A stretch of 22,654 nt of DNA, taken from positions 1 through 22,654 of IMG/VR virus record IMGVR_UViG_3300046838_000312; one strand, 5' to 3'. Numbering within the stretch: position 1 is the stretch's first letter; each line of letters begins with the position of its first letter. The notes under the pieces were generated by a model that worked only from the letters and a program-made list of their open reading frames with translations, was not told the DNA's origin and did not search any database. The DNA is from a virus. Position numbers and translations under genes: made by a program. Below, one piece after another: positions 752 through 22,654 of the stretch.

Positions 752-895
752 CTAGCGCCGGCTCCAGAGGTACTTCACGTGGGCGACCAGGTGCTTGCCG
801 ACCAGGTGACCGGCCAGCGCGGCGCCGAAGAAGATCACGACCCCGGTCCAGGCACTCACGTCGTAGGTGCTGAACGTGTCCCCGGCCGCCCTCAC
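752..895 (-). CDS. small single-pass membrane protein
   Basis: A 47-residue ORF, last gene of the leftward operon. Its GTG start shares a GTGA overlap (892-895) with the stop codon of the upstream gene at 892-1236, and GGAAGGGG lies just upstream as a ribosome binding site. Residues about 13-34 (starting SAWTGVVIFFGAALAGHL) form one hydrophobic helix, followed by a basic tail (HVKYLWSRR), which favours an N-out/C-in single-pass topology. The translational coupling and clean membrane profile make it a likely gene in spite of its size. Function is unknown. A membrane-acting phage accessory peptide is possible. Confidence 0.7.
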   Translation of the reverse strand: MRAAGDTFSTYDVSAWTGVVIFFGAALAGHLVGKHLVAHVKYLWSRR

Positions 896-1236
896 GATGA
901 CCCCTTCCGGGGCGTGATGCGCACCGGCTCTCTGGACCGCACCGGATGCAGCTCGTGCGGCTTGGCGAGCTCGGCCTCCTGAGCGAGGACCACCCGTTGG
1001 ATGTGCACCTGGGCCATCAGCAGCGTGATGGCGTTGCCCAGGCTGACCCAGCTGTCGTGGCTCATGTCGAGCACCCGCAGGTGAGCGTCGCTCAGCAGCT
1101 CCAGGACCGCTTCGCTCGGCTCGTCGACGAAGGCGACGTGCTCGTCCATCGAGTCCAGCTGCGCCCGGGCTCCCGAGAGTGTCATGTAGACCTGATTGAG
1201 CCGCCCCATCTTCATCAGCGGTGTCTCGGCGGTCAT
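892..1236 (-). CDS. hypothetical helical protein
   Basis: A 114-residue protein. The ATG start overlaps the stop of the upstream gene as ATGA (1233-1236), and GGGGGAG lies immediately upstream. The frame is open further upstream but that extension is low-complexity Arg-rich sequence opposite a real gene. Predicted mostly alpha-helical: GRLNQVYMTLSGARAQLDSM, then EAVLELLSDAHLRVLDM, then a helix around NAITLLMAQVHIQRVVLAQE, ending in a basic tail. No Cys pairs or catalytic motif. Position in the tight leftward operon suggests co-expression with its small neighbours. Family not recognised. Confidence 0.7.
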   Translation of the reverse strand: MTAETPLMKMGRLNQVYMTLSGARAQLDSMDEHVAFVDEPSEAVLELLSDAHLRVLDMSHDSWVSLGNAITLLMAQVHIQRVVLAQEAELAKPHELHPVRSREPVRITPRKGSS

Positions 1237-1550
1237 CGCTCCCCCAGATGCACGACGCAGGTGCGCCCGTCGCCGTACGCGCAGGTGCACTGCGGCTCCT
1301 TCGAGGGGCCGATCCGGGTGTACTTCTTCCCGGCGCTGGACCACGACGACAGGGTGCCCACGGTCTGGCCGGCGCCGTTGACCAGGTTGGCTACCAGCAG
1401 CCAGCACTCCTCGCCCTTCGATGCGTCGTGCTGCACCGTGCTGACGAAGGCGTCCATGAACACCCGGCCGTCGAAGGAGATCTCCAGGTGGTCATCGGGC
1501 CAAAGCGCGGCGACGTTCACCTCCTGCCGGTCGACTGCTGAGGCGCTCAT
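1233..1550 (-). CDS. hypothetical protein with C-terminal Cys cluster
   Basis: A 105-residue protein joined to both neighbours by 4-bp ATGA overlaps (1547-1550 upstream, 1233-1236 downstream). The N-terminal 70 residues look beta-rich (HLEISFDGRVFMDAFVSTV, then ECWLLVANLV). The C-terminal 20 residues hold a compact Cys/His group, CTC at residues 88-90, Cys98 and His101, which could bind a metal. Cys49 lies in the middle. I do not recognise the family. The repeated appearance of Cys/His groups in this operon is the only functional hint. Confidence 0.7.
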   Translation of the reverse strand: MSASAVDRQEVNVAALWPDDHLEISFDGRVFMDAFVSTVQHDASKGEECWLLVANLVNGAGQTVGTLSSWSSAGKKYTRIGPSKEPQCTCAYGDGRTCVVHLGER

Positions 1551-1798
1551 GCCCACGGCCCGCGGCTGAGCACGCTCCACTCGTGCTCCCACTCGGTGTC
1601 GATGCGGCGTATCTCGAGGATCCGCCCGTCGTCGCCCAGGCGCTGGATGATGACGCGCACCTCGTGGCCGTCGTGGTGGATCAGCAGCTCGTTGCGGTCG
1701 AAGACGTTGTAGCGGGCGTTCTCGAACCACACGACGTAGCCGGGCTTGAGCTCCTCGGTGGTGACGAGCTCGGTCTTCTGGTCAGTCGGAAGGGGCAT
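1547..1798 (-). CDS. hypothetical small beta-rich protein
   Basis: An 83-residue protein. Its ATG lies 17 bases inside the end of the upstream gene and its stop overlaps the next ATG as ATGA (1547-1550). The upstream extension of the frame is low-complexity Ser/Thr/Arg sequence and was not used. The sequence alternates short strands (GYVVWFENARYNVF, then HEVRVIIQRL, then RILEIRRIDT), consistent with a small SH3-like or beta-barrel fold, and ends with Trp-rich sequence (EWEHEWSVLSRGPWA). No cysteine and no catalytic motif. Function unknown. Confidence 0.7.
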   Translation of the reverse strand: MPLPTDQKTELVTTEELKPGYVVWFENARYNVFDRNELLIHHDGHEVRVIIQRLGDDGRILEIRRIDTEWEHEWSVLSRGPWA

Positions 1799-2024
1799 GG
1801 GCGGGCTCCTGGTAGGTGTAGATGATGCCGAAGTGGTCCGGGACGGGGCACTCGTCCCGGCTGTGGTGGATCGGGTCGACCTTGAAGGTGAGGGTGACGT
1901 AGCTCGAGGTGCCCTCGGCCGTGTCCGGGTAGACGACGGCCTTCTGGCCGACGTGGTAGAGCAGCAGCTCACACCCGGCGCAGGTGATCTTCTGGACAGG
2001 TGCGGACGGGGGAAGGATGGCCAT
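1782..2024 (-). CDS. hypothetical protein with CxxC motif
   Basis: An 80-residue protein whose ATG overlaps the upstream stop by one base (TGATG at 2022-2026). The long open frame upstream is a shadow of the neighbouring genes. CAGC at residues 15-18 and HH at 53-54 with Cys59 (IHHSRDEC) form a possible zinc site. The rest is beta-rich (KAVVYPDTAEGTSSYVTLTF). It reads like a small zinc-ribbon-type protein, but the family is not recognised. Its end overlaps the next gene by 17 bases. Confidence 0.7.
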   Translation of the reverse strand: MAILPPSAPVQKITCAGCELLLYHVGQKAVVYPDTAEGTSSYVTLTFKVDPIHHSRDECPVPDHFGIIYTYQEPAHAPSD

Positions 2025-2338
2025 CAGCTGGTCTTCCGCCGCGACCGCGGCCGCGCCGGCGGCTTGGGCTCCGCCGGCTCGCCCTCCTTCGCCTCCTTGG
2101 CGTCCTGCGCCTGCTCGGCGTAGTGCGCCTCGGCCCGCTCGGCGTTCTCCCCGTAGCCGGTGATGGCCCACGTCTCGACCGAGGCCGTCGTGTTGGGGTC
2201 CTCCCTGAGCCGCTCGGCCAGCCCGGCCATGACCCGGGTGTCGCCGCCGAAGATGACCCGCATGCCATCCACCGAGCCGAAGGCCTGAGTGACACTGCCC
2301 TCGGTGATGAACGCGGGGTTGATGTTGGTGACGAGCAT
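2024..2338 (-). CDS. hypothetical protein with charged low-complexity tail
   Basis: A 104-residue protein, ATG at 2338 with a one-base TGATG overlap with the upstream stop. Residues 1-65 appear folded (MLVTNINPAFITEGSVTQAF, then a short glycine turn FGGDTRVMAGLAERL). From about residue 66 the chain becomes a charged Ala/Glu/Lys/Pro tail that ends in a basic cluster (RPRSRRKTS), typical of a disordered nucleic-acid-contacting or solubility tail. No Cys, no catalytic motif. Not recognised. Confidence 0.7.
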   Translation of the reverse strand: MLVTNINPAFITEGSVTQAFGSVDGMRVIFGGDTRVMAGLAERLREDPNTTASVETWAITGYGENAERAEAHYAEQAQDAKEAKEGEPAEPKPPARPRSRRKTS

Positions 2339-3327
2339 CAGTGGCTTCTCCTTCTTCCGCGGGCCGGCGGCCCGTACGTGGACTGCTGTGCTTCCACGCC
2401 GCGTCGGTGCGGTCGTGGGTCTGGCGCCTCCTCGAGGGGAGGGATGGTGGGCTCCGGCTCCTCGGACAGTCCGAACATCGACCGGATCCTGCTGGCGGTG
2501 TCGGGGTCCATCTCGATGCCAGTGATCTCCTCCCGGCGGGCCGTATCGAACTGGTGGATCTCGTCGAGGACGACGTAGGTGAGGTCCTGCCCGCGCATCC
2601 GGGGACGCTGGCTGGCTTGCACCAGCCGGAACAGGTAGACGAATCCCGCCTCGTCAACGAGGACCTCGGCGTTGTACTGGCTGTGGGGGTTGCCCCAGTG
2701 CTGCATGCGCAGCGCCATGAAGTTGAGGTCCTCGAGCGGGTTGGAGTTCTGGTCCGACCACACGATGCCGGTCGGCCAGGGCCGGCCAGTCGACACCTCG
2801 AGGTAGGCCCGGTACCAGGGCAGCACGCGGGCGAGCTCCCAGCGAAGGCCGTGAGCCAAGGTCCCGCCGCGCGAGTGGCTGTTGGACAGGTTCACCAGTA
2901 GCCGCTCGATGTAGCCGCCAAGAAGCGTGGGCAGGAGGTCGGCCTGGATCTCCACCAGCATCTGGTCGCTGACCTCGATCGCGAAGCACTCGTCGTAGAC
3001 GGTGAGCTCGACCACGTGGCTGGACCGCTGCTCCACCCGCTGGACCCGCAGCATCAGCCACGGGCGCTGCCGCTGCGGGCCCTGCAACGAGAAGTGCTGG
3101 AGCTCGCGCCGGCGCCATTCTTCCTGCATGCGCTCGTGAGCGCCGAGCAGGTTCGGCGTCGTCCGTCGAGGCGCTACATACCGGTCGTAGATGTAGTAGT
3201 CACCCTGGAGCTGCTCGGGCTCGTGGGTGCCGTCTGCGGTCCAGGTGGCCGAGTCGTCGCTGCCGTACCACTCGACGATGTCCTGGTCGATGTCGGCCAG
3301 GACCCGGTCGACCTCCTCCTCGTTCAC
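2338..3327 (-). CDS. hypothetical protein, largest of the leftward operon, with orphan DEIH motif
   Basis: A 329-residue protein starting at GTG 3327, overlapping the upstream stop as GTGA (3324-3327). A further in-frame ATG at 3375 would overlap the upstream gene by about 50 bases and is less likely. The N-terminus is acidic (EEEVDRVLADIDQDIVEWY). The middle is mixed alpha/beta with many Trp residues. Residues 251-262 read TYVVLDEIHQFD, which looks like a Walker B/DExH element of the kind seen in helicases and terminases, yet I find no Walker A loop (GxxxxGKS/T) anywhere in the protein. The C-terminal about 45 residues are Pro/Arg-rich and probably disordered. No family is recognised, and the DEIH could be coincidental. 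It sits in a run of small Cys-rich genes. Confidence 0.75.
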   Translation of the reverse strand: MNEEEVDRVLADIDQDIVEWYGSDDSATWTADGTHEPEQLQGDYYIYDRYVAPRRTTPNLLGAHERMQEEWRRRELQHFSLQGPQRQRPWLMLRVQRVEQRSSHVVELTVYDECFAIEVSDQMLVEIQADLLPTLLGGYIERLLVNLSNSHSRGGTLAHGLRWELARVLPWYRAYLEVSTGRPWPTGIVWSDQNSNPLEDLNFMALRMQHWGNPHSQYNAEVLVDEAGFVYLFRLVQASQRPRMRGQDLTYVVLDEIHQFDTARREEITGIEMDPDTASRIRSMFGLSEEPEPTIPPLEEAPDPRPHRRGVEAQQSTYGPPARGRRRSH

Positions 3328-3665
3328 CGCTCGTCGCGCTTCGGGTGGCGCAGCCCCCACGTTCCCAGGCAGCACAACGAGATGTACTCCGGGCTGTCGG
3401 CACCGAAGGCGGTGCGGGTGTGGGTGAACAGGATGGACAGGTCATCGCGGAACGGCTCGTAGGGCACCGAGATTCCCTGGGCGAGCACGGCGAGCGACCA
3501 CCCCGGTGACTTGTCGGAGGCGAAGTGGCCGGCGATCGCCCGGGCGGAGGCATCCGAGACCTCGCGGCGGTCCTCGAACGGGGCGGTCTGGGCGAAGACG
3601 TCGAGGGCCTCCTTCGAGGCGTGCTCCCAGTCGACCGGGTCGACGTCATTGCGGATCTGCAGCAT
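3324..3665 (-). CDS. hypothetical protein
   Basis: A 113-residue protein. The ATG at 3665 is preceded by GAAGGAGAG at a good distance, and the start lies 20 bases inside the upstream gene, which supports this start over the longer open frame. The body is helical (WEHASKEALDVFAQTAPFED, then VSDASARAIAGHF), followed by a hydrophobic stretch (WSLAVLAQGISVPY) too polar to be a clear membrane segment, and a CC pair at the C-terminal part (EYISLCCLGTWGL). The stop overlaps the next GTG as GTGA. Function unknown. Confidence 0.7.
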   Translation of the reverse strand: MLQIRNDVDPVDWEHASKEALDVFAQTAPFEDRREVSDASARAIAGHFASDKSPGWSLAVLAQGISVPYEPFRDDLSILFTHTRTAFGADSPEYISLCCLGTWGLRHPKRDER

Positions 3666-3915
3666 CAGGCTCTCCTTCGGTGTTGTGGTCGGGGCAGTGC
3701 GCGAGCAGGGCGTCCTCGGAGAGGAACCAGCCCTTGGCCTGCAGCTCGGTGATGACGTCCTTGAGCAGGCCCGTGACGTAGATGTAGGCCTGGCACTGCT
3801 GCTCGCCTCCGTAGACGAGCACACGGCGCCAGCCGGTGGTCGGGATGGTGGCATCGCAGCGCACGAACCACTCCGCCGGCCGATCGGGCGGAGTGGTCTC
3901 CCTCTTGAGCGTCAC
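3646..3915 (-). CDS. hypothetical small protein
   Basis: An 89-residue protein starting at GTG 3915, coupled to the upstream stop by a GTGA overlap (3912-3915). It begins with a basic segment and then alternates strands and a helix (EWFVRCDATIPTTGWRRVLV, then AYIYVTGLLKDVITELQAKG). Cysteines at residues 20, 41 and 74 with His73 are spread out rather than paired, so a metal site is uncertain. It is followed by a gene starting 20 bases before its end. Not recognised. Confidence 0.7.
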   Translation of the reverse strand: MTLKRETTPPDRPAEWFVRCDATIPTTGWRRVLVYGGEQQCQAYIYVTGLLKDVITELQAKGWFLSEDALLAHCPDHNTEGEPDAADPQ

Positions 3916-4253
3916 GTCCGCCGACCCTTGAGGAAGTCGGCGAACTTGTGGATCTCGCGCTGGTCGTTCAGCGAGAGTGGTTCGTCGCCGCTCGGGCAGG
4001 TGATGACGCCAGGGATGCAGGCGCTGCACAGGTCCTCCTCGACCCACCAGCAACCGCCGGCGCATGCGTGGTACTGGCTGCACCCGCAGGTGCGGCACTT
4101 ACGGGTCGCCTCTCCGAGCACGGCCTCGCTGATGTGGTCCTGGTCCTCGAGGATGCGCGCGTCCTCGGTCGCCGCAGCGATCAGGAGCGAGAACATCTCG
4201 ATCTCGTCCTCGGTGGGCGGGTCCTGGTCGAGCGGGGTCAGGATCGACCCCAT
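3912..4253 (-). CDS. hypothetical protein with eight-cysteine metal-binding cluster
   Basis: A 113-residue protein beginning at ATG 4253, seven bases after the upstream stop. The N-terminal half is an acidic helix (EIEMFSLLIAAATEDARILE). Residues 53-86 contain eight cysteines spaced C-x2-C-x-C-x5-C-x3-C-x7-C-x2-C-x6-C (RKCRTCGCSQYHACAGGCWW, then EDLCSAC), a dense pattern that should bind one or two zinc ions or an Fe-S cluster. The CxxCGC...CxGGCxWVExDLCSAC pattern is one I associate with small uncharacterised proteins of actinobacterial phages; this is from memory and unverified. The C-terminus is basic. No enzyme can be named. A nucleic-acid or protein-binding zinc module is the simplest reading. 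Confidence 0.8.
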   Translation of the reverse strand: MGSILTPLDQDPPTEDEIEMFSLLIAAATEDARILEDQDHISEAVLGEATRKCRTCGCSQYHACAGGCWWVEEDLCSACIPGVITCPSGDEPLSLNDQREIHKFADFLKGRRT

Positions 4254-4260
4254 CCCGCCG

Positions 4261-4509
4261 TTAGCCGTTCTGATCTGCGTTCGCCGCTGCCGGCCGAACA
4301 GTCCGCTTCCAGACACGGTCCTCCTCCTTCGCTCCTGCGTTGGGCTTGATGGCGCCGCAGTCGCTGCACTCGTAGTGCGAGACGCGGACGTGAGCCTGGG
4401 CGCTGAAGAGAGCGTCCATGGCGGGGCCGGCATCGGTCATGGGACCGAGCTCGTCGATGATGTACGTGACGACCCGGTGGTCGCACGGGGCGAACGGCTG
4501 AACGGTCAC
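4261..4509 (-). CDS. hypothetical zinc-ribbon-like small protein
   Basis: An 82-residue protein starting at GTG 4509, coupled by a GTGA overlap (4506-4509) to the upstream gene. CDH at residues 9-11 and HYECSDCGAIKP at 45-56 give two Cys/His half sites about 35 residues apart, consistent with a single zinc site. The segment between is helical (GPAMDALFSAQAHV). The tail is Ala/Asn-rich. It ends with TAA, uncommon in this GC-rich region, seven bases before the next start. Function unknown. Confidence 0.7.
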   Translation of the reverse strand: MTVQPFAPCDHRVVTYIIDELGPMTDAGPAMDALFSAQAHVRVSHYECSDCGAIKPNAGAKEEDRVWKRTVRPAAANADQNG

Positions 4510-5018
4510 AGACGGACCTCCTCCTCGGTGGTGTTGCCACATCGGGGGCAGATGTGGCCTCGGTCGTGGTGCGTGTGGCAGGCGGTGCAGCGCGCGACGT
4601 CGATGCGATCCAGGATGCCCTCACCGCGGCGCTTCGGGCCGGGCTTGAGGATGACGTCCTCGTTCCCGCCGGCGGCCTCGACCAGATGCGCGTGCTCCTT
4701 GCGGACCTCACGCAGCGCCATGGTCATCAGTTCGGCGAACCGATCCTGGTTCTCGTCGAGCAGCCACTTCAGCGCCAGGTCGCGCGCACGCTTGTTCAGG
4801 GTGCGGGCGGTGGTGCGCTTCCGGGGCACTGTGTTGGCGCAGGACCGGCACGTGTTGTTCCGGACGACGTGGCCGGCCTGGTCGTGGGAGTCGTAGAACT
4901 CCTCGACCTTCTGGCCCTCCCCGCACACCCGGCAGACGCGCCAGCCCGGCGGTGCGTCGTGGACCTCGGCTTCCTGGCCATCGAGGATGCGCTCGGTGGC
5001 CTCGTCGTGCGGCGTCAT
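4506..5018 (-). CDS. protein with two zinc-ribbon-like modules flanking a helical domain
   Basis: A 170-residue protein with an ATGA overlap (5015-5018) to the upstream gene. Residues 29-60 hold one four-Cys module (CRVCG at 29-33 and CRSC at 57-60), of the EFY-containing type often seen in phage HNH-associated and zinc-finger proteins. Residues 144-160 hold a second (CTACHTHH then CPRC). Between them lies a basic helical domain (RTTARTLNKRARDLALKWLL, then RFAELMTMALREVRKEH). The architecture suggests binding to DNA or RNA. No HNH catalytic His-Asn-His arrangement is visible, so it is not called a nuclease. Confidence 0.75.
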   Translation of the reverse strand: MTPHDEATERILDGQEAEVHDAPPGWRVCRVCGEGQKVEEFYDSHDQAGHVVRNNTCRSCANTVPRKRTTARTLNKRARDLALKWLLDENQDRFAELMTMALREVRKEHAHLVEAAGGNEDVILKPGPKRRGEGILDRIDVARCTACHTHHDRGHICPRCGNTTEEEVRL

Positions 5019-5341
5019 GACAGGTCCGCCTGAGGACCATGCAGCGAGCGCAGCACCCGCCGAGCGTGCCTGGCCATCTTGTAGTGCCGCTCCAGCTCGT
5101 CGGCGTCGACGTCGGTGTAGGAGGCGATGCGGCGCAGACCCGACTCGACCTGCTGGTTCGGGTAGGCCTTGCGGACCGACTCCTCCCAGCCCTGGATCAT
5201 GGCGGCGTAGGTGTCGGTGGCGACATCGTCACCGTTGGTGGTGTTCGGGTTCTGCACCAGTTCCTGGCCGAGCCGGCTCAGGTCGCGCAACTGCGAGACG
5301 AGACCGTGCTGGACCATGCCTGCGAGGTAGTGCGTGGACAT
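5015..5341 (-). CDS. hypothetical helical protein, first gene of the leftward operon
   Basis: A 108-residue protein. The ATG at 5341 follows AGGAGGAA (5345-5352), the best Shine-Dalgarno in this region, so the longer open frame upstream was rejected. It is mostly helical: HYLAGMVQHGLVSQLRDLSR, a polar linker (NPNTTNGDD), then TYAAMIQGWEESVRKAY and a basic C-terminal helix (DELERHYKMARHARRVLRSL). Its distance from the candidate promoter (about 90 bases) leaves a 5' leader occupied by a large stem-loop, so expression may be controlled at the RNA level. No known family was recognised. A small DNA-binding or regulatory role is possible but not shown. Confidence 0.75.
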   Translation of the reverse strand: MSTHYLAGMVQHGLVSQLRDLSRLGQELVQNPNTTNGDDVATDTYAAMIQGWEESVRKAYPNQQVESGLRRIASYTDVDADELERHYKMARHARRVLRSLHGPQADLS

Positions 5342-5369: not shown

Positions 5370-5428
5370 AAGCCCCCTTGGGCGACCCACGCGAGGTTCC
5401 GGCTCGCATAGACCACCCAAGGGGGCTT
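5370..5428 (-). promoter_or_regulatory. nested inverted repeat in the leader of the leftward operon
   Basis: A perfect 13-bp inverted repeat, AAGCCCCCTTGGG (5370-5382) with CCCAAGGGGGCTT (5416-5428), encloses a second 5-bp stem, GCGAG (5391-5395) with CTCGC (5403-5407). Outside it, GTGGGTACGC (5358-5367) and GCGTACCAC (5447-5455) pair with one bulge. As leftward RNA, the 13-bp stem would sit at or near the 5' end and about 17 bases before the Shine-Dalgarno of the first gene. There is no U-run, so it is not an obvious terminator. Confidence 0.75.
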
Positions 5429-5434
5429 GTGGTA

Positions 5435-5464
5435 ATAATACCCCGCGCGTACCACGGGCCGCAA
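5435..5464 (-). promoter_or_regulatory. candidate promoter for the leftward operon
   Basis: Read leftward, TTGCGG (5464-5459) and TATTAT (5440-5435) are separated by 18 bases, a sigma-70-like arrangement with a 5/6 match at -10 and only a partial match at -35. It is the only AT-rich patch in this intergenic region. The predicted transcription start (about 5428-5430) falls on the first base of the 13-bp leader stem. Confidence 0.5.
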
Positions 5465-5467
5465 GAG

Positions 5468-5484
5468 ATGAGAATGGTTCTCAT
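5468..5484. promoter_or_regulatory. 17-bp palindrome at the HNH gene start, possible operator
   Basis: ATGAGAATGGTTCTCAT is a perfect 7-bp inverted repeat around a 3-base centre. Its central 15 bases match the Fur/Zur-type consensus I recall for actinobacteria (TGAAAATGATTTTCA) at 12 positions. It covers three in-frame ATG codons of the HNH gene and lies four bases beyond the -35 of the leftward promoter. It could therefore be an operator for both divergent units, or an RNA hairpin over the start region. Confidence 0.5.
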
Positions 5485-5896
5485 GAACGAGCAACAGGCA
5501 AGGGCGATCGTGCTCGAGCGCTCGGACGACCGGTGCGAGATCGCCGTGCCGGGTGTCTGCACCGGCCGACGTGACAGCGTCCACCACCGGCTCAAGCGCG
5601 GCCGCGGTCACGAGTGGGCTCCGAGCAATCTGCTGGGGTCCTGTGGTGACGGCACCCGCGGCTGCCACGGCTACGTCGAGGCGCACCCCACCTGGGCGCA
5701 GAGCGAGGGGCTGTGGCTGATGGCCGGCGACGGCGAGCCCCAGGAGGTCAGCGTCCACATGCGCTGGCACAACCAGCGTTCCTGGTGGCTCCTGGACGAC
5801 GAGGGGCTGCTGACCTGGGACGGGACGGCCTTCGAGGACCTGCAGCTGGACCCGCGGTTCACGCGTCTGACGTTCGCGACCAAGAGCCCGCGCTGA
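5468..5896 (+). CDS. HNH endonuclease
   Basis: A 142-residue protein of the HNH nuclease family. Residues 23-73 carry CEIAVPGVC, then VHHR at 38-41, Asn54 and a GSCGDGTRGCHGYVEAHP segment, so Cys23/Cys31/Cys59/Cys66 would bind structural zinc and His39/His40, Asn54 and His67/His73 supply the nuclease core. HNH enzymes next to the terminase are known in cos-type phages to act with it during genome packaging, so that is the likely role here. The C-terminal half (residues 85-142) is a Trp-rich extension (RWHNQRSWWLLDDEGLLTWD). The start is uncertain: ATG codons at 5468, 5474 and 5483 are all in frame and inside the palindrome, with weak AAGAG as the only ribosome binding site. Confidence 0.85.
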   Translation: MRMVLMNEQQARAIVLERSDDRCEIAVPGVCTGRRDSVHHRLKRGRGHEWAPSNLLGSCGDGTRGCHGYVEAHPTWAQSEGLWLMAGDGEPQEVSVHMRWHNQRSWWLLDDEGLLTWDGTAFEDLQLDPRFTRLTFATKSPR

Positions 5897-6744: not shown

Positions 6745-7415
6745 TGTCGACGCTGCACGATCTCATCTACTCGGGCTTCACCGCCCGGCAGGGACGCGCC
6801 ATCCTGGCGGCCCTCGCTGGTGGCGGCGGAGGCGGTGGCGGCGGCGCAGGCGGCCCATCGGGGATGACCTCGGTGCAGGCCGGCGCGTGGGCCAAGAGCG
6901 AGGTCACCACCGGCAACGGCACGGCCGACCCGTACACCTACTTCACGGCGCGGACCTTCACCTTCAACCGCAACCCGGGTGGGACCAACCCCGGGCATGT
7001 GCAGGGGCCGGCGCTCGTCGACGGTGACGCGGACGGCTACTTCGGCTTCGACATGGCCGCCGCCGGCTGGTACCAGATGTCCGGCAGCATCAACTTCCAG
7101 GTGTCCCACGCCGACCCGCAGGCGCTGCCCGACTTCGCCACGATCGAGATGCTCTACGGCGAGTGGGGCCAGCCGGGCATCAGCCAGCTGCAGCCCCTCG
7201 CTGACGGGCGGATCGGCTACGACTCCTTCGGCACCGGCCGCGGCGCTTTCTGGAGCGCAGTCACCGAGCCGTTCTACATGCACGGCTACGACGTCACCTG
7301 GGGGACCGGGATCGCCTTCCGGATCCGGATGCCCGGGGTCGGCTTCACCCTCGCCACCTGGAACAACTCCCTGGCCCAGTACGCGCTGAAGCTCAGCGTT
7401 ACCCAGCTGGGCTGA
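6744..7415 (+). CDS. virion fibre/decoration-like protein with poly-glycine linker (paralog 2)
   Basis: A 223-residue protein with a TGATG start/stop overlap (6742-6746). Residues 1-25 (LHDLIYSGFTARQGRAILAA) align with the first paralog through the shared pattern DLIxSGxxARxxRxILA, followed by nine glycines (26-34). The remaining about 185 residues are a beta-rich domain containing GWYQMSGSINFQVS, matching the GWYQISW strand of its neighbour, and ending in ALKLSVTQLG. The head domains are otherwise divergent, which is what fast-evolving surface-exposed receptor or decoration proteins show after duplication. The stop overlaps the terminase ATG, so translation of the two is coupled. Confidence 0.7.
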   Translation: MSTLHDLIYSGFTARQGRAILAALAGGGGGGGGGAGGPSGMTSVQAGAWAKSEVTTGNGTADPYTYFTARTFTFNRNPGGTNPGHVQGPALVDGDADGYFGFDMAAAGWYQMSGSINFQVSHADPQALPDFATIEMLYGEWGQPGISQLQPLADGRIGYDSFGTGRGAFWSAVTEPFYMHGYDVTWGTGIAFRIRMPGVGFTLATWNNSLAQYALKLSVTQLG

Positions 7416-9010
7416 TGTCCTTCCGTCTGCCGAGGGCGCCGCGAACAGACGACGAGCTGTGGTGGCTCATCAACGCCATGTTCGGCGTGAAGCTGCCGCG
7501 CGTCTCGGTCTGCGAGGGGCACGTCAGCCCCTTCGAGGCGGTCGCCCACGCCTACTGGGGCAAGGAGCCCAACTTCGCGGTCTGGTACGCCAGCCGCGGT
7601 TCGGGCAAGTCCCTGGCCCTGGCGGTCCTCGGGCTGACCAAGGCCTTCGTGCGCGACGTCGACGTCACCATCCTCGGCGGGTCGATGACCCAGAGCCTCA
7701 ACGTGCGCGAACACATGCGCAAGCTCATGGCGCACTCCAACGCCCCGGTCTACGCCGTCGAGAAGGACCAGGCCACCCTGATCCAGATGGCCACCGGCAA
7801 GGCCATCAAGCCGCTGCCGGCGTCCCAGACCACCGTCCGAGGCCCGCACCCGCCGCTGCAGCTGCTGGACGAGGTCGACGAGATGGAGCGGGCCATCTAC
7901 GACGCCTCGCTGGGCCAGGCGATGGAGCAGATCAACGTCCACGGCCACGTCATCGAGGAGTACATCGTCGCCTCGAGCACCTGGCAGAACCCCGAGGGCA
8001 CCTTCACCTCGGTCATGGAGGACGCCCGGGAGAAGGGCCTGCCGATCTTCACCTGGTGCTGGCGAGAACTGCTGCAGCCGCACGGGTGGATGAGCGAGCG
8101 GTTCATCACCAACAAGCGCAAGGCCGTCTCGGCCCAGATGTGGCACACCGAGTACGACCTGAACGAGCCCAACGCCGGCAGCCGGGCCTTCGACCTGGAC
8201 AAGGTCGAGAAGTACACCATCGAGTACGAGCCCCTGGTCCGCGAGCGCCACGAGGGCAATGGCGACCACGACGTCTACGTGTGGGAGGAGCCGCAGGCCG
8301 GCGGCCTCTATGCGGTCGGCGCCGACTGGGCCAAGGAGCAGGACAAGACCGTCATCGGCGTCGTCCGGTACGACGTCAAGCCGCGGCGCCTGGTCAAGCT
8401 CACCCGGATCAACCGGCGCCCCTGGGACGTCATGATCGACCTCTTCAACCGCGACACCCAGGACTACCAGGCGGTGGCCGAGCACGACGGCACCGGCGTG
8501 GGCAACGTCGTCGACGACTTCCTGGACTACTCCGACACCACGGCCAAGTTCGTCATGGTGGGGCGGCCACGCACCCAGCTGCTGCTGGACTACATCACCT
8601 CCTTCGAGCACGGCAACTACCGCATCCCGCGGATCCCGAAGAACGTCGACTTCCCGGGCGTGGTCGCCGACCCGCTGTACCGGGCCCACCGCGGCGTCAC
8701 CGTGGCCGATGTCTACGCGCCCGGCAAGTGGAACAGCCACCTGTCGGACGACGTCGCCATGATGGCCCTGGCCCACCGCGCGATCGAGCGGAACCCCGTG
8801 CCCATCACCCACGACGGCAGCGTCCCCTCCAACGGGATCCCGCGCGACGCCGACAAGCCGTTCCACGTCCAGCCTGACGGCAACACCTCCGTCGTGGTCG
8901 GCAACGTCGAGATCGTCGACGAGCGCTACGGAGACATCGGCGTCTTCGGGGTCCCGACCAACTCCGGCGGCGGCAGCGAGCGCGACCCCTGGGAGGCGAT
9001 GTCGGTATGA
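7415..9010 (+). CDS. terL: terminase large subunit
   Basis: A 531-residue packaging motor that couples ATP hydrolysis to DNA translocation into the procapsid and cuts the concatemer. ATPase domain: Walker A SRGSGKS at residues 60-66, Walker B LQLLDEVDE at 148-156 and a coupling motif SST at 187-189. Nuclease domain (RNase H-like): Asp304 in VGADWAKEQDKT, Asp358 in AEHDGTGVG and Asp445/Asp446 in HLSDDVAMM give the expected acidic triad. The length is normal for the family. The C-terminal 75 residues are a polar tail. The ATG overlaps the preceding stop (TGATG) and the stop overlaps the next gene (ATGA). No small terminase subunit is recognisable beside it. Confidence 0.95.
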   Translation: MSFRLPRAPRTDDELWWLINAMFGVKLPRVSVCEGHVSPFEAVAHAYWGKEPNFAVWYASRGSGKSLALAVLGLTKAFVRDVDVTILGGSMTQSLNVREHMRKLMAHSNAPVYAVEKDQATLIQMATGKAIKPLPASQTTVRGPHPPLQLLDEVDEMERAIYDASLGQAMEQINVHGHVIEEYIVASSTWQNPEGTFTSVMEDAREKGLPIFTWCWRELLQPHGWMSERFITNKRKAVSAQMWHTEYDLNEPNAGSRAFDLDKVEKYTIEYEPLVRERHEGNGDHDVYVWEEPQAGGLYAVGADWAKEQDKTVIGVVRYDVKPRRLVKLTRINRRPWDVMIDLFNRDTQDYQAVAEHDGTGVGNVVDDFLDYSDTTAKFVMVGRPRTQLLLDYITSFEHGNYRIPRIPKNVDFPGVVADPLYRAHRGVTVADVYAPGKWNSHLSDDVAMMALAHRAIERNPVPITHDGSVPSNGIPRDADKPFHVQPDGNTSVVVGNVEIVDERYGDIGVFGVPTNSGGGSERDPWEAMSV

Positions 9011-20585: not shown

Positions 20586-20878
20586 GTAGCGACACGCAGA
20601 TTGACTCCGACGCCTACCCGGTCGTCGTGGGCATCGTCAGCGCGAAGTCCCGCCGGGCGATCAACGACGCTGCCGCGTTGTTCGCCAGCTACGTGCAGGA
20701 CGTCATGGCCACCGGCCGCTCATCCGAGGACGCCTGGCGCGAGCTCGCGTCGGCCTCGGTGGTCCTGCTGACCGACCAGACCATCGAGCTGGCCCGGCTG
20801 CGTCGGCAGACCTCCGCCCAGGCGGTGCTGCAGCTGGCGGCTGACGTCTGCGACCGCCACTCCGGGAGCCCGGTATGA
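20582..20878 (+). CDS. hypothetical small helical protein
   Basis: A 98-residue protein with ATGA overlaps on both sides (20582-20585 and 20875-20878), between the portal and a large basic protein. It is mainly helical (VSAKSRRAINDAAALFASYV, then EDAWRELASASVVLLTDQTI and TSAQAVLQLAADVCDRH). No membrane helix or catalytic motif. Coupling to the portal suggests a head-assembly role such as a connector or scaffold accessory, but this is inference only. Confidence 0.65.
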   Translation: MSSDTQIDSDAYPVVVGIVSAKSRRAINDAAALFASYVQDVMATGRSSEDAWRELASASVVLLTDQTIELARLRRQTSAQAVLQLAADVCDRHSGSPV

Positions 20879-22654
20879 GCGATCGTCGTCGCGACGCTGC
20901 GACGGCTACAGTCGGGCTCGGTGGCGTCGCGGGGGCTGGTGCGCTGCGCCATGTCGGCCTCGAGCGGGCCTACGAGGGAAAGGCCCGCCCGAAGGTTCCC
21001 CTGCTGCATGAGCTCAAGTTGGTCCGGACCCGACGTGGCCGCATCCCGTACGCCGCCGGCGCAGCGCTGGGGCTGGTCTCCGTGCCGACCGCCGCGGTGG
21101 GCACGTCACGCCTGCTCAGCCGTCGCGTCGACAAGGCCGACGACCGGAAGCGGTCCTTCCTCAGCGAGGGCGTCGCCGGCGCACGCGAGGCGGTCACCTC
21201 CCGCAACGACGCCATCAAGGAGCGCCCACCCGGCAAGCTCGTGGCGGGCAACTACCTGGCCGGTGCCGCGGTCGGGTCCGCCGCTGGCGCGCTGGTGCAC
21301 CGCGCTCCGGCACTGCGTCGCCTGCCCGGCGCGATGCGGTCGGGGCTCGCGGCCGCCAGCGGCGTGACCGCTGGCAGCGCCACGCTGCCGATCCAGAGCA
21401 AGATCACCCAGCGGGCCACCCATGGCGAGTACGAGGTGACCCCCACCGGCGTGCGCCGCAAGCGCAAGAAGCGCGCCGCCCCCTCGCGCACGATCGTCGA
21501 CGGCCGCCCGGGCAAGAGCAACATGCACCCCATGGCGCTGCGCCAGGCGATGGTGCCCAGCAGCGACCCGTTCGAGAAGCGCGGCGAGCGCACAGCGGCG
21601 CGCTGGACGGTCGGGCTCACCCAGACCGCCGACAAGATGGAGCGCAGGGTCAAGCGCGGCCGTCTGGTTCCGGTGGCGGCGATCGGGGTGCGCTCGCTAG
21701 CCCGTGACGCCTCTCCGCTCGCTCGGGTCCGGATCCCGGTCCACAAGGCCGGCTACTACGGCGAGGACATGAGCCGCAGGGAGAAGCGCGCCAGGGTGGC
21801 AGCCGTAGGCGGTGCGCCGTTCGTCGGCGACTTCGCTCAGGCGGCCCAGGCCGGGCGGATGGCCCCTCCCGGCCAGCGTGGCTCGGCCGCGGCCCTGCAG
21901 TACAGCGGTGGCCAGGTCGGCGGCGCAGTCGGACAGGTTGCCGGCGCAGCTGGCGCTCTCGGGCTGGCCAGCCGTAGCCACCACGTCCAGCGGGGTGCGG
22001 AGAAGGTCACCGACGCCGTCGACCGCGCCGAGTCCACTGCCCGGCGGGTGGTCCGCGCTCCGGCCAAGGGCGCTCGCAAGCCCGGCATGCTGGCTCGCGA
22101 GGCGGCCAACCCCAAGGCTCCGCGCGCCGTGCGCGCCGCGCTGCGGCCGGTCGTGCGCAACCCCAAGGCAGCGATCGCCGGCGCCCTCATCGGCGGGGCG
22201 ATCGGCAGCCAGGCCGGCGGCCAGGCTGGCTATGGCATCGCGCTCAACCGCGAGGACGCCTACAAGCGCCGGGTGAACAAGAACATGGCCGGAAAGATGG
22301 GTGGAATCCAGGGTGGCCGCTTCGCCAAGGCGGCCGACACCCACCCGCTGAGCAACCGCGAGCAGCGAGTGCTGCGGCAGCGCAAGAACCGCAGCGCGGT
22401 CATGAGCGCGGTCGGTGGGGCCACTGGCATCGCCTCCCTTGCAGCGCTGGGTGCGTCGCGCCATCCGAAGCTGCGCCGGCTGAAGGACATCCAGACCCCG
22501 CTGCTGACCACCGGTGCCGGTGTGGGTGGGATCAACGCCTTCACCAACGCCGCCATCCAGCGCAAGGAGGCCCAGGCGAGCGCGGTCCGCAAGGCCCTGG
22601 TGCCCACGGGCATCCGGCGCGCCCCGGCGATGCGCGCTGGCTTCATACGTCAGA
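20875..22654 (+). CDS. large basic protein with multiple Gly/Ala-rich hydrophobic segments, partial at window end
   Basis: Open from ATG 20875 to the last base (593 codons, no stop), so the C-terminus is missing. At least eight Gly/Ala-rich hydrophobic segments occur, for example near residues 11-28 (ATVGLGGVAGAGALRHVG), 122-140 (VAGNYLAGAAVGSAAGALV), 345-360 (VGGAVGQVAGAAGALGL), 430-450 (AIAGALIGGAIGSQAGGQAG) and near the end (GAGVGGINAFTNAA). They alternate with very basic Arg/Lys stretches (VRRKRKKRAAPSRT, RREKRARVAAV). GxxxG-type spacing is typical of glycine zippers that pack helices in membranes. Next to the portal, an internal virion or DNA-ejection protein is a reasonable guess. No protease or MuF motif was seen. 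Confidence 0.75.
   Translation, partial: MSDRRRDAATATVGLGGVAGAGALRHVGLERAYEGKARPKVPLLHELKLVRTRRGRIPYAAGAALGLVSVPTAAVGTSRLLSRRVDKADDRKRSFLSEGVAGAREAVTSRNDAIKERPPGKLVAGNYLAGAAVGSAAGALVHRAPALRRLPGAMRSGLAAASGVTAGSATLPIQSKITQRATHGEYEVTPTGVRRKRKKRAAPSRTIVDGRPGKSNMHPMALRQAMVPSSDPFEKRGERTAARWTVGLTQTADKMERRVKRGRLVPVAAIGVRSLARDASPLARVRIPVHKAGYYGEDMSRREKRARVAAVGGAPFVGDFAQAAQAGRMAPPGQRGSAAALQYSGGQVGGAVGQVAGAAGALGLASRSHHVQRGAEKVTDAVDRAESTARRVVRAPAKGARKPGMLAREAANPKAPRAVRAALRPVVRNPKAAIAGALIGGAIGSQAGGQAGYGIALNREDAYKRRVNKNMAGKMGGIQGGRFAKAADTHPLSNREQRVLRQRKNRSAVMSAVGGATGIASLAALGASRHPKLRRLKDIQTPLLTTGAGVGGINAFTNAAIQRKEAQASAVRKALVPTGIRRAPAMRAGFIRQ

Follow-up and report, generated by a model that had tools for sequence, protein, structure and literature searches.

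The window, meaning the whole 22,654-nucleotide (nt) stretch analysed here (IMG/VR virus record IMGVR_UViG_3300046838_000312, positions 1 to 22,654), comes from an uncultured, high-GC, tailed phage. Its left part holds an operon of 13 open reading frames (ORFs), all on the minus strand between positions 752 and 5341, and the element of interest is a 59-nt hairpin in the 5' leader of that operon. This hairpin, which was absent from an earlier sequence-only reading of the window, is put forward as a candidate regulatory RNA not described before, and of the whole locus it is what deserves following. A divergent HNH endonuclease gene opens the rightward packaging and structural run, which also encodes tail-type proteins, a large terminase, an endolysin, a holin and a portal. 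The HNH gene was used as the synteny anchor. Related virus contigs, L003 to L007, had terminases 75-79% identical to that of the window. The features that frame the operon were as follows.

5474 to 5896, plus strand: divergent HNH endonuclease gene (PHROG 740, E = 3e-22; 47-59% identical in L004 to L007).
5436 to 5465, minus strand: predicted sigma70-type promoter, TTGCGG, 18-nt spacer, TATTAT (read by eye; spacing computed).
5370 to 5428, minus strand: 5' leader hairpin, 59 nt, with a 26-bp stem and the loop CCGGAAC, between the -10 box and gene 1.
752 to 5341, minus strand: the 13-gene operon.
711 to 741 (approximate), minus strand: GC-rich hairpin 3' of the last gene, a candidate terminator without a U tract, proposed from the sequence and a strong local fold; it faces a convergent plus-strand gene that ends at 686.

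On the minus strand, from 5428 to 5370, the leader hairpin reads AAGCCCCCUUGGGUGGUCUAUGCGAG-CCGGAAC-CUCGCGUGGGUCGCCCAAGGGGGCUU. The 121-nt leader of the window had a folding energy of -56.9 kcal/mol (z = -5.6), which was equalled by none of 200 shuffled sequences; the leader hairpin alone, which is stable and GC-rich, was valued at -47 kcal/mol in the window and at -37 to -45 kcal/mol in the relatives. The base of the stem lies about 6 nt past the predicted -10 box in the window, and 4-9 nt past it across all four phages with distinct leaders, and the distance from hairpin to start codon is 28 nt in the window and 34-53 nt in three distinct relatives. The tails that follow the stem are UUCU, UUCUUUG, CUUUG and CUUUG. 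At the place of the promoter the relatives have TTGACC or TTGACG and TACTAT, TATAAG or TATAAT; a generic promoter scan did not pass 5436 to 5465, and the promoter of the window is weak on its own. The sequence around the -10 box (5438-5449, GGTATTATTACC) is a perfect 12-bp palindrome, which, as judged from its symmetry, could supply a -10 box to either direction of transcription or be the site of a dimeric regulator.

All of the related records that held the region (L004, L005, L006 and L007) had a hairpin with the loop CCGGACC or CCGGAAC at the equivalent place, the hairpins of L006 and L007 being identical. A covariance model built from three sequences, with L006 and L007 left out, was searched against 728 kb and independently found these two records (44.8 bits, E = 4.5e-7). 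The element was present once per record in five records, the window included, and the model gave no convincing score in 19 more distant records. Furthermore, double-sided changes were seen in 8 of 23 pairs compared to 3.6 in shuffles (2 of 500 were as high), and 90% of cells were paired compared to at most 55% in slid versions. The transcribed strand had 11 G-U and 2 A-C opposites (P = 0.011), an excess that points to constraint on RNA over DNA, and z scores of the sense folds were -5.6, -5.7, -6.3 and -1.9 as against -3.0, -2.8, -4.5 and -1.1 for the antisense folds. Conservation arising from a coding frame was considered and rejected, since by eye the loop falls in different frames in the window and in L005. 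In the leader of L004 (minus strand, approximately 7340-7450) a possible further helix, GTGTGCCCC with GGGGGCACAC, was seen by eye to enclose the hairpin; it was absent from the other leaders.

Searches for the element elsewhere gave little. There was no Rfam match to the hairpin at the gathering score, and a relaxed E value returned only microRNA models at chance level. When compared by BLAST with named phages, the leaders gave only short pieces at chance level, and the layout was not found in Arthrobacter phage Ottawa, where all genes shown point one way. No published description of the hairpin element was found in the literature searched, most subscription papers being outside its coverage. 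A pattern search returned the known relatives and further matches that were rejected: those in L085, L088, L090, L091 and L092 were mostly collagen-like or other composition-driven stretches, that in L089 was without this fold, and the hairpin in L086 was of another kind and had a U7 tail.

The genes behind the leader are closely packed. As the sequence-only reading had described, the 13 genes all face left and nearly all overlap by 1-20 bp: all 13 ORFs were present, and 11 of the 12 junctions overlapped, the remaining one being a gap. Taken leftward, the junctions are overlaps of 4 and 4 bp, the gap of 7 bp, and overlaps of 4, 20, 4, 1, 1, 17, 4, 4 and 4 bp, with the start of gene 7 adjusted to what is most likely its start codon, the GTG at 3327. 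A codon-model gene caller written for this analysis recovered all 13 genes, that at 3646-3915 with a shorter start. All lie on the minus strand.

5015 to 5341, minus strand: gene 1, 108 amino acids (aa); no match; Shine-Dalgarno sequence GGAGGA upstream.
4506 to 5018, minus strand: gene 2, 170 aa; zinc finger at the N terminus, then a long helix, and a zinc ribbon at the C terminus (RIDVARCTxCxTHHDRGHxCPxCG).
4261 to 4509, minus strand: gene 3, 82 aa; CxH...CxxC protein.
3912 to 4253, minus strand: gene 4, 113 aa; CxxCGC...CxGGCxWV..DLCxxC motif.
3646 to 3915, minus strand: gene 5, 89 aa; PHROG 926 (function unknown) matched weakly, E = 5e-4.
3324 to 3665, minus strand: gene 6, 113 aa; no match.
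2338 to 3327, minus strand: gene 7, 329 aa; no relative found.
2024 to 2338, minus strand: gene 8, 104 aa; no match.
1782 to 2024, minus strand: gene 9, 80 aa; CxxC motif; no match.
1547 to 1798, minus strand: gene 10, 83 aa; no confident match.
1233 to 1550, minus strand: gene 11, 105 aa; C-terminal CxC...C cluster; no match.
892 to 1236, minus strand: gene 12, 114 aa; no match.
752 to 895, minus strand: gene 13, 47 aa; single hydrophobic segment by eye; putative small membrane protein.

All 13 proteins were scanned against Pfam and PHROGs, most against NCBIfam, and 10 of the 13 against PADLOC, which is a list of defence genes that covers counter-defence poorly. No confident functional match was obtained in any of the four, in agreement with the sequence-only reading, which could name no function. 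Neither the Pfam and PHROGs searches, which covered every protein, nor the PADLOC search of 10 found a defence or known counter-defence family, the last giving only one weak zinc-element match. The CxxC motifs reported by the same reading in four genes (4506-5018, 4261-4509, 3912-4253 and 1782-2024), and the terminal Cys cluster in 1233-1550, were present. Cys made up 2.11% of residues in the operon proteins (32 of 1520) compared to 0.42% in the products of the rightward genes (21 of 4948), an approximately fivefold difference (Fisher P = 9e-9). In the equivalent leftward cassettes the values were 1.77% (L004), 1.90% (L005) and 0.86% (L006). Since the L004 and L005 cassettes were likewise more or less Cys-rich, this richness is a trait of early proteins and is not peculiar to the operon of the window.

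For gene 2, an arrangement of finger, helix and ribbon was read with moderate confidence from an AlphaFold model with a predicted local distance difference test score (pLDDT) of 65. The N-terminal finger is weakly similar to the zinc element found ahead of endonuclease VII/HNH cores; the matches obtained were to PHROG 2340 (E = 7e-5) and, weakly, to the Hpy99I zinc element (probability 0.99 but E = 0.09). In this low-confidence model the finger is followed by the long helix and zinc ribbon, and a beta-beta-alpha-metal core was not recognised. A counterpart with 42% identity occupies the equivalent operon position in L004 (6476-7027), and viral contigs yielded no other relative, even when a two-row profile was used. 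Gene 3 had weak relatives in leftward cassettes (L005:2914-3108, E = 1.3e-5; L004:3594-3968, E = 4e-4). For gene 4 the motif alone, not the whole protein, recurred, with a best E of 9e-6, in phages of Stenotrophomonas, Xanthomonas and Streptomyces. No relative of gene 7 turned up among viral contigs, among named phages or among 16,357 ORFs from related loci, and its AlphaFold model was unusable (pLDDT 38).

A leftward run of small genes adjoins the HNH gene at the equivalent place in L004, L005, L006 and L007, with 19 genes called in L004, 18 in L005 and 12 in L006; the runs of L005 and L006 reach the contig end. Eleven of the 13 operon proteins had no counterpart in these relatives with 75-79% identical terminases, counterparts being found only for gene 2 (in L004) and, weakly, for gene 3 (in L004 and L005). 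About five cassette genes were common to L004 and L005, and one or two to the window and either of them. In L004, the one long relative, the run goes on with genes for a DnaB-like helicase, a primase, what is probably a single-strand-binding protein and a PolIII-type polymerase, all recognised by eye. Because 11 of the 13 genes are replaced in relatives and the L004 run leads into replication genes, the operon is read as an early accessory cassette and not as a conserved 13-gene system; most simply, the 13 genes are a high-turnover accessory block that heads the early region and is freely exchanged between relatives. One gene common to two cassettes (L004:6148-6483 and L005:4702-5184; E = 6e-23 to each other) gave, for the L005 copy, a weak nucleoside 2-deoxyribosyltransferase-type match (PF05014, E = 0.003), and from this match a nucleotide-binding or counter-defence role is conceivable.

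The operon of the window covers 4.6 kb before it meets a convergent gene that runs rightward, and the replication genes of this phage are therefore outside the view. At the other end, a long rightward open frame (20876-22654) seems to leave the record, which is thus probably a fragment of the phage genome. No near match to the window was found among named phages: the closest named relatives of the portal were at most approximately 45% identical (an unannotated gut phage and Arthrobacter phages), and the terminase had a single remote match. No terminase relatives were found in bacterial genomes. For the capsid, one 63% identical relative, in a contig of a Bacteroidetes metagenome-assembled genome, was rejected as evidence of the host, and relatives elsewhere were 40-45% identical.

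A comparable arrangement was seen in a separate freshwater clade (L009, L010, L018 and L020; terL 49% identical), in which the first leftward gene is the helicase. The order in these records is a promoter-like TATAAT, a conserved GGGGAGGGGGCAGTATG element (with variants in L020), a U-tailed hairpin and the first leftward gene; the hairpin has a UUUU(UU)G tail and is separated by 22-29 nt from the start codon of that gene, with which the leftward replication operon begins. Upstream of the helicase on the minus strand, L009, L010, L017, L018, L174 and L176, with a variant in L020, have GGGGA(A/G)GGGGCAGTATG ... CTTCCC followed by the U-tailed hairpin. This conserved leader of the replication operon of freshwater phages seems to represent another leader RNA family, distinct from the first. 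The Rfam tmRNA model matched only approximately 83 nt adjoining the terminase in L009 (9421-9503) and L018 (6880-6962), and L020 has a tRNA at the equivalent place.

The reading that we prefer, tentatively and at somewhat short of an even chance, is that the hairpin is a cis-acting RNA leader, either an attenuator or an antitermination site, that controls elongation into the early operon. A single promoter at approximately 5436-5465 would transcribe the whole operon, and the 59-nt hairpin, with its loop CCGGA(A/C)C, would fold once the transcript exits RNA polymerase. By default the hairpin would work as, or set up, an attenuator that restrains the early operon, and what releases polymerase would be either a factor, from host or phage, with affinity for the conserved loop, or the polymerase-bound hairpin itself. 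Elongation control is supported by the position, specificity, RNA-level constraint and terminator-like form of the hairpin, and by the persistence of the leader while the genes downstream are replaced. Several observations weigh against it. The U tract of the window is poor (CUUCUG), that of the relatives being better (UUCUUUG, CUUUG) and that of the distant clade strong (UUUUG, UUUUUUG), and a terminator scan left the window hairpin unscored. No internal terminators stood out in the operon for antitermination to overcome, and no alternative antiterminator fold was found. The covariation comes from four distinct but related sequences, which is good but not overwhelming, and L006 alone was not strongly stable (z = -1.9). 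Finally, the two clades are alike in layout without detectable sequence likeness, so that the link between them is an analogy.

A rather unlikely alternative is that the hairpin stabilises the mRNA at its 5' end, the closed stem resisting 5'-end-dependent decay with no regulated termination. The stem base, 4-9 nt past the -10 box, lies approximately at the expected start, which would leave the RNA nearly flush with the stem, and pairing is kept while the stem sequence varies. A stabiliser would, however, need neither the fixed CCGGA(A/C)C loop nor the U-containing 3' flank, and the terminator-like hairpin of the other clade lies farther from the promoter, behind another element. Elongation control is favoured over stabilisation because an early promoter, a terminator-like hairpin and early genes appear to be combined in both clades. 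It is less likely still that the hairpin ends a stand-alone trans-acting small RNA of approximately 60-70 nt, whose loop CCGGAAC would pair with a host or phage target or titrate an RNA-binding protein. Small RNA genes are built in this way, with a promoter followed by a terminator-like hairpin, and the apical loop, the best conserved part, contains GGA. However, no target was found, none having been looked for, and the remaining 28-53 nt hold no other visible promoter for the downstream genes, so that read-through must occur.

There is also a slim chance that the inverted repeat acts as DNA, whether as the operator of a regulator that governs the divergent promoters or as some other protein-binding site. 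It does lie in the divergent intergenic region between the main directions of transcription, but the 11 to 2 ratio of G-U to A-C opposites, the stronger sense-strand fold in three of four leaders and the single copy per record all argue against such a site. Equally improbable is the proposal of the sequence-only reading that the 13 genes form one undescribed system for host takeover or counter-defence: in its favour are the early-type position, the small size of the genes, their zinc motifs and the lack of any known family, but the set is kept in no relative and PADLOC gave nothing but the weak zinc element in gene 2. What endured of that proposal is that the operon is of early type and encodes small, coupled proteins, some with zinc motifs, to which no function can be given by name. 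That reading had named frequent loss from close relatives as evidence against a single system, and such loss was what the comparison revealed; in the follow-up that it had suggested, profile searches gave no confident match, the structure models had pLDDT values of 65 (gene 2) and 38 (gene 7), and synteny showed the place kept and the genes mostly replaced. Single operon genes may have a part in host takeover or counter-defence.

If elongation control is correct, early transcription in this uncultured high-GC phage lineage would be gated by a conserved leader RNA and not by a conserved protein. The hairpin would then locate the early regions of such phages where no gene is recognisable, and the orphan genes would be an exchangeable cassette behind a constant switch.

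Among the closest known systems is the put RNA of phage HK022 (putL). This antitermination RNA, found in lambdoid phages, is approximately 70 nt long, lies downstream of early promoters, consists of two stem-loops, and suppresses later terminators in cis via the zinc-binding domain of the RNA polymerase beta-prime subunit (PMC9378689). The window hairpin resembles it in length, in its place right after an early leftward promoter, in its conserved RNA structure and in the early genes downstream. Unlike put, the window and each relative have one continuous stem-loop, and the phage is an uncultured, high-GC one known here from sequence alone. Since place and size agree with put and the fold disagrees, the hairpin was not filed as a put RNA; that it founds a new family of cis-acting processive antitermination RNAs, put-like in function, unrelated in structure and used by high-GC phages to turn on their early region with no need of a phage protein, is improbable.

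Another, canT of Tn916, is a processive, probably RNA-based cis antiterminator with insulating terminators, shown by reporters (PMC11658703). It resembles the proposed leader in that a mobile element pairs a terminator near its early genes with a cis antiterminator; it differs in that Tn916 is a conjugative element in which canT stands apart from the terminator (PMC11658703). Ordinary attenuators, like the window, have a hairpin in the untranslated region that separates the promoter from the first gene, and its tail is U-rich in part. They differ in that no competing antiterminator fold, ligand or leader peptide was found for the window hairpin, and in that the loop sequence is conserved in the window clade, which is unneeded in an ordinary attenuator.

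The genes themselves fall within a familiar pattern. Tailed phages have hypervariable early cassettes of many overlapping small orphan genes ahead of or among their replication genes, with rapid turnover between close relatives, and nothing essential sets the operon of the window apart from these. The operon itself is genuine, and while its gene content is new, its kind is ordinary and known.

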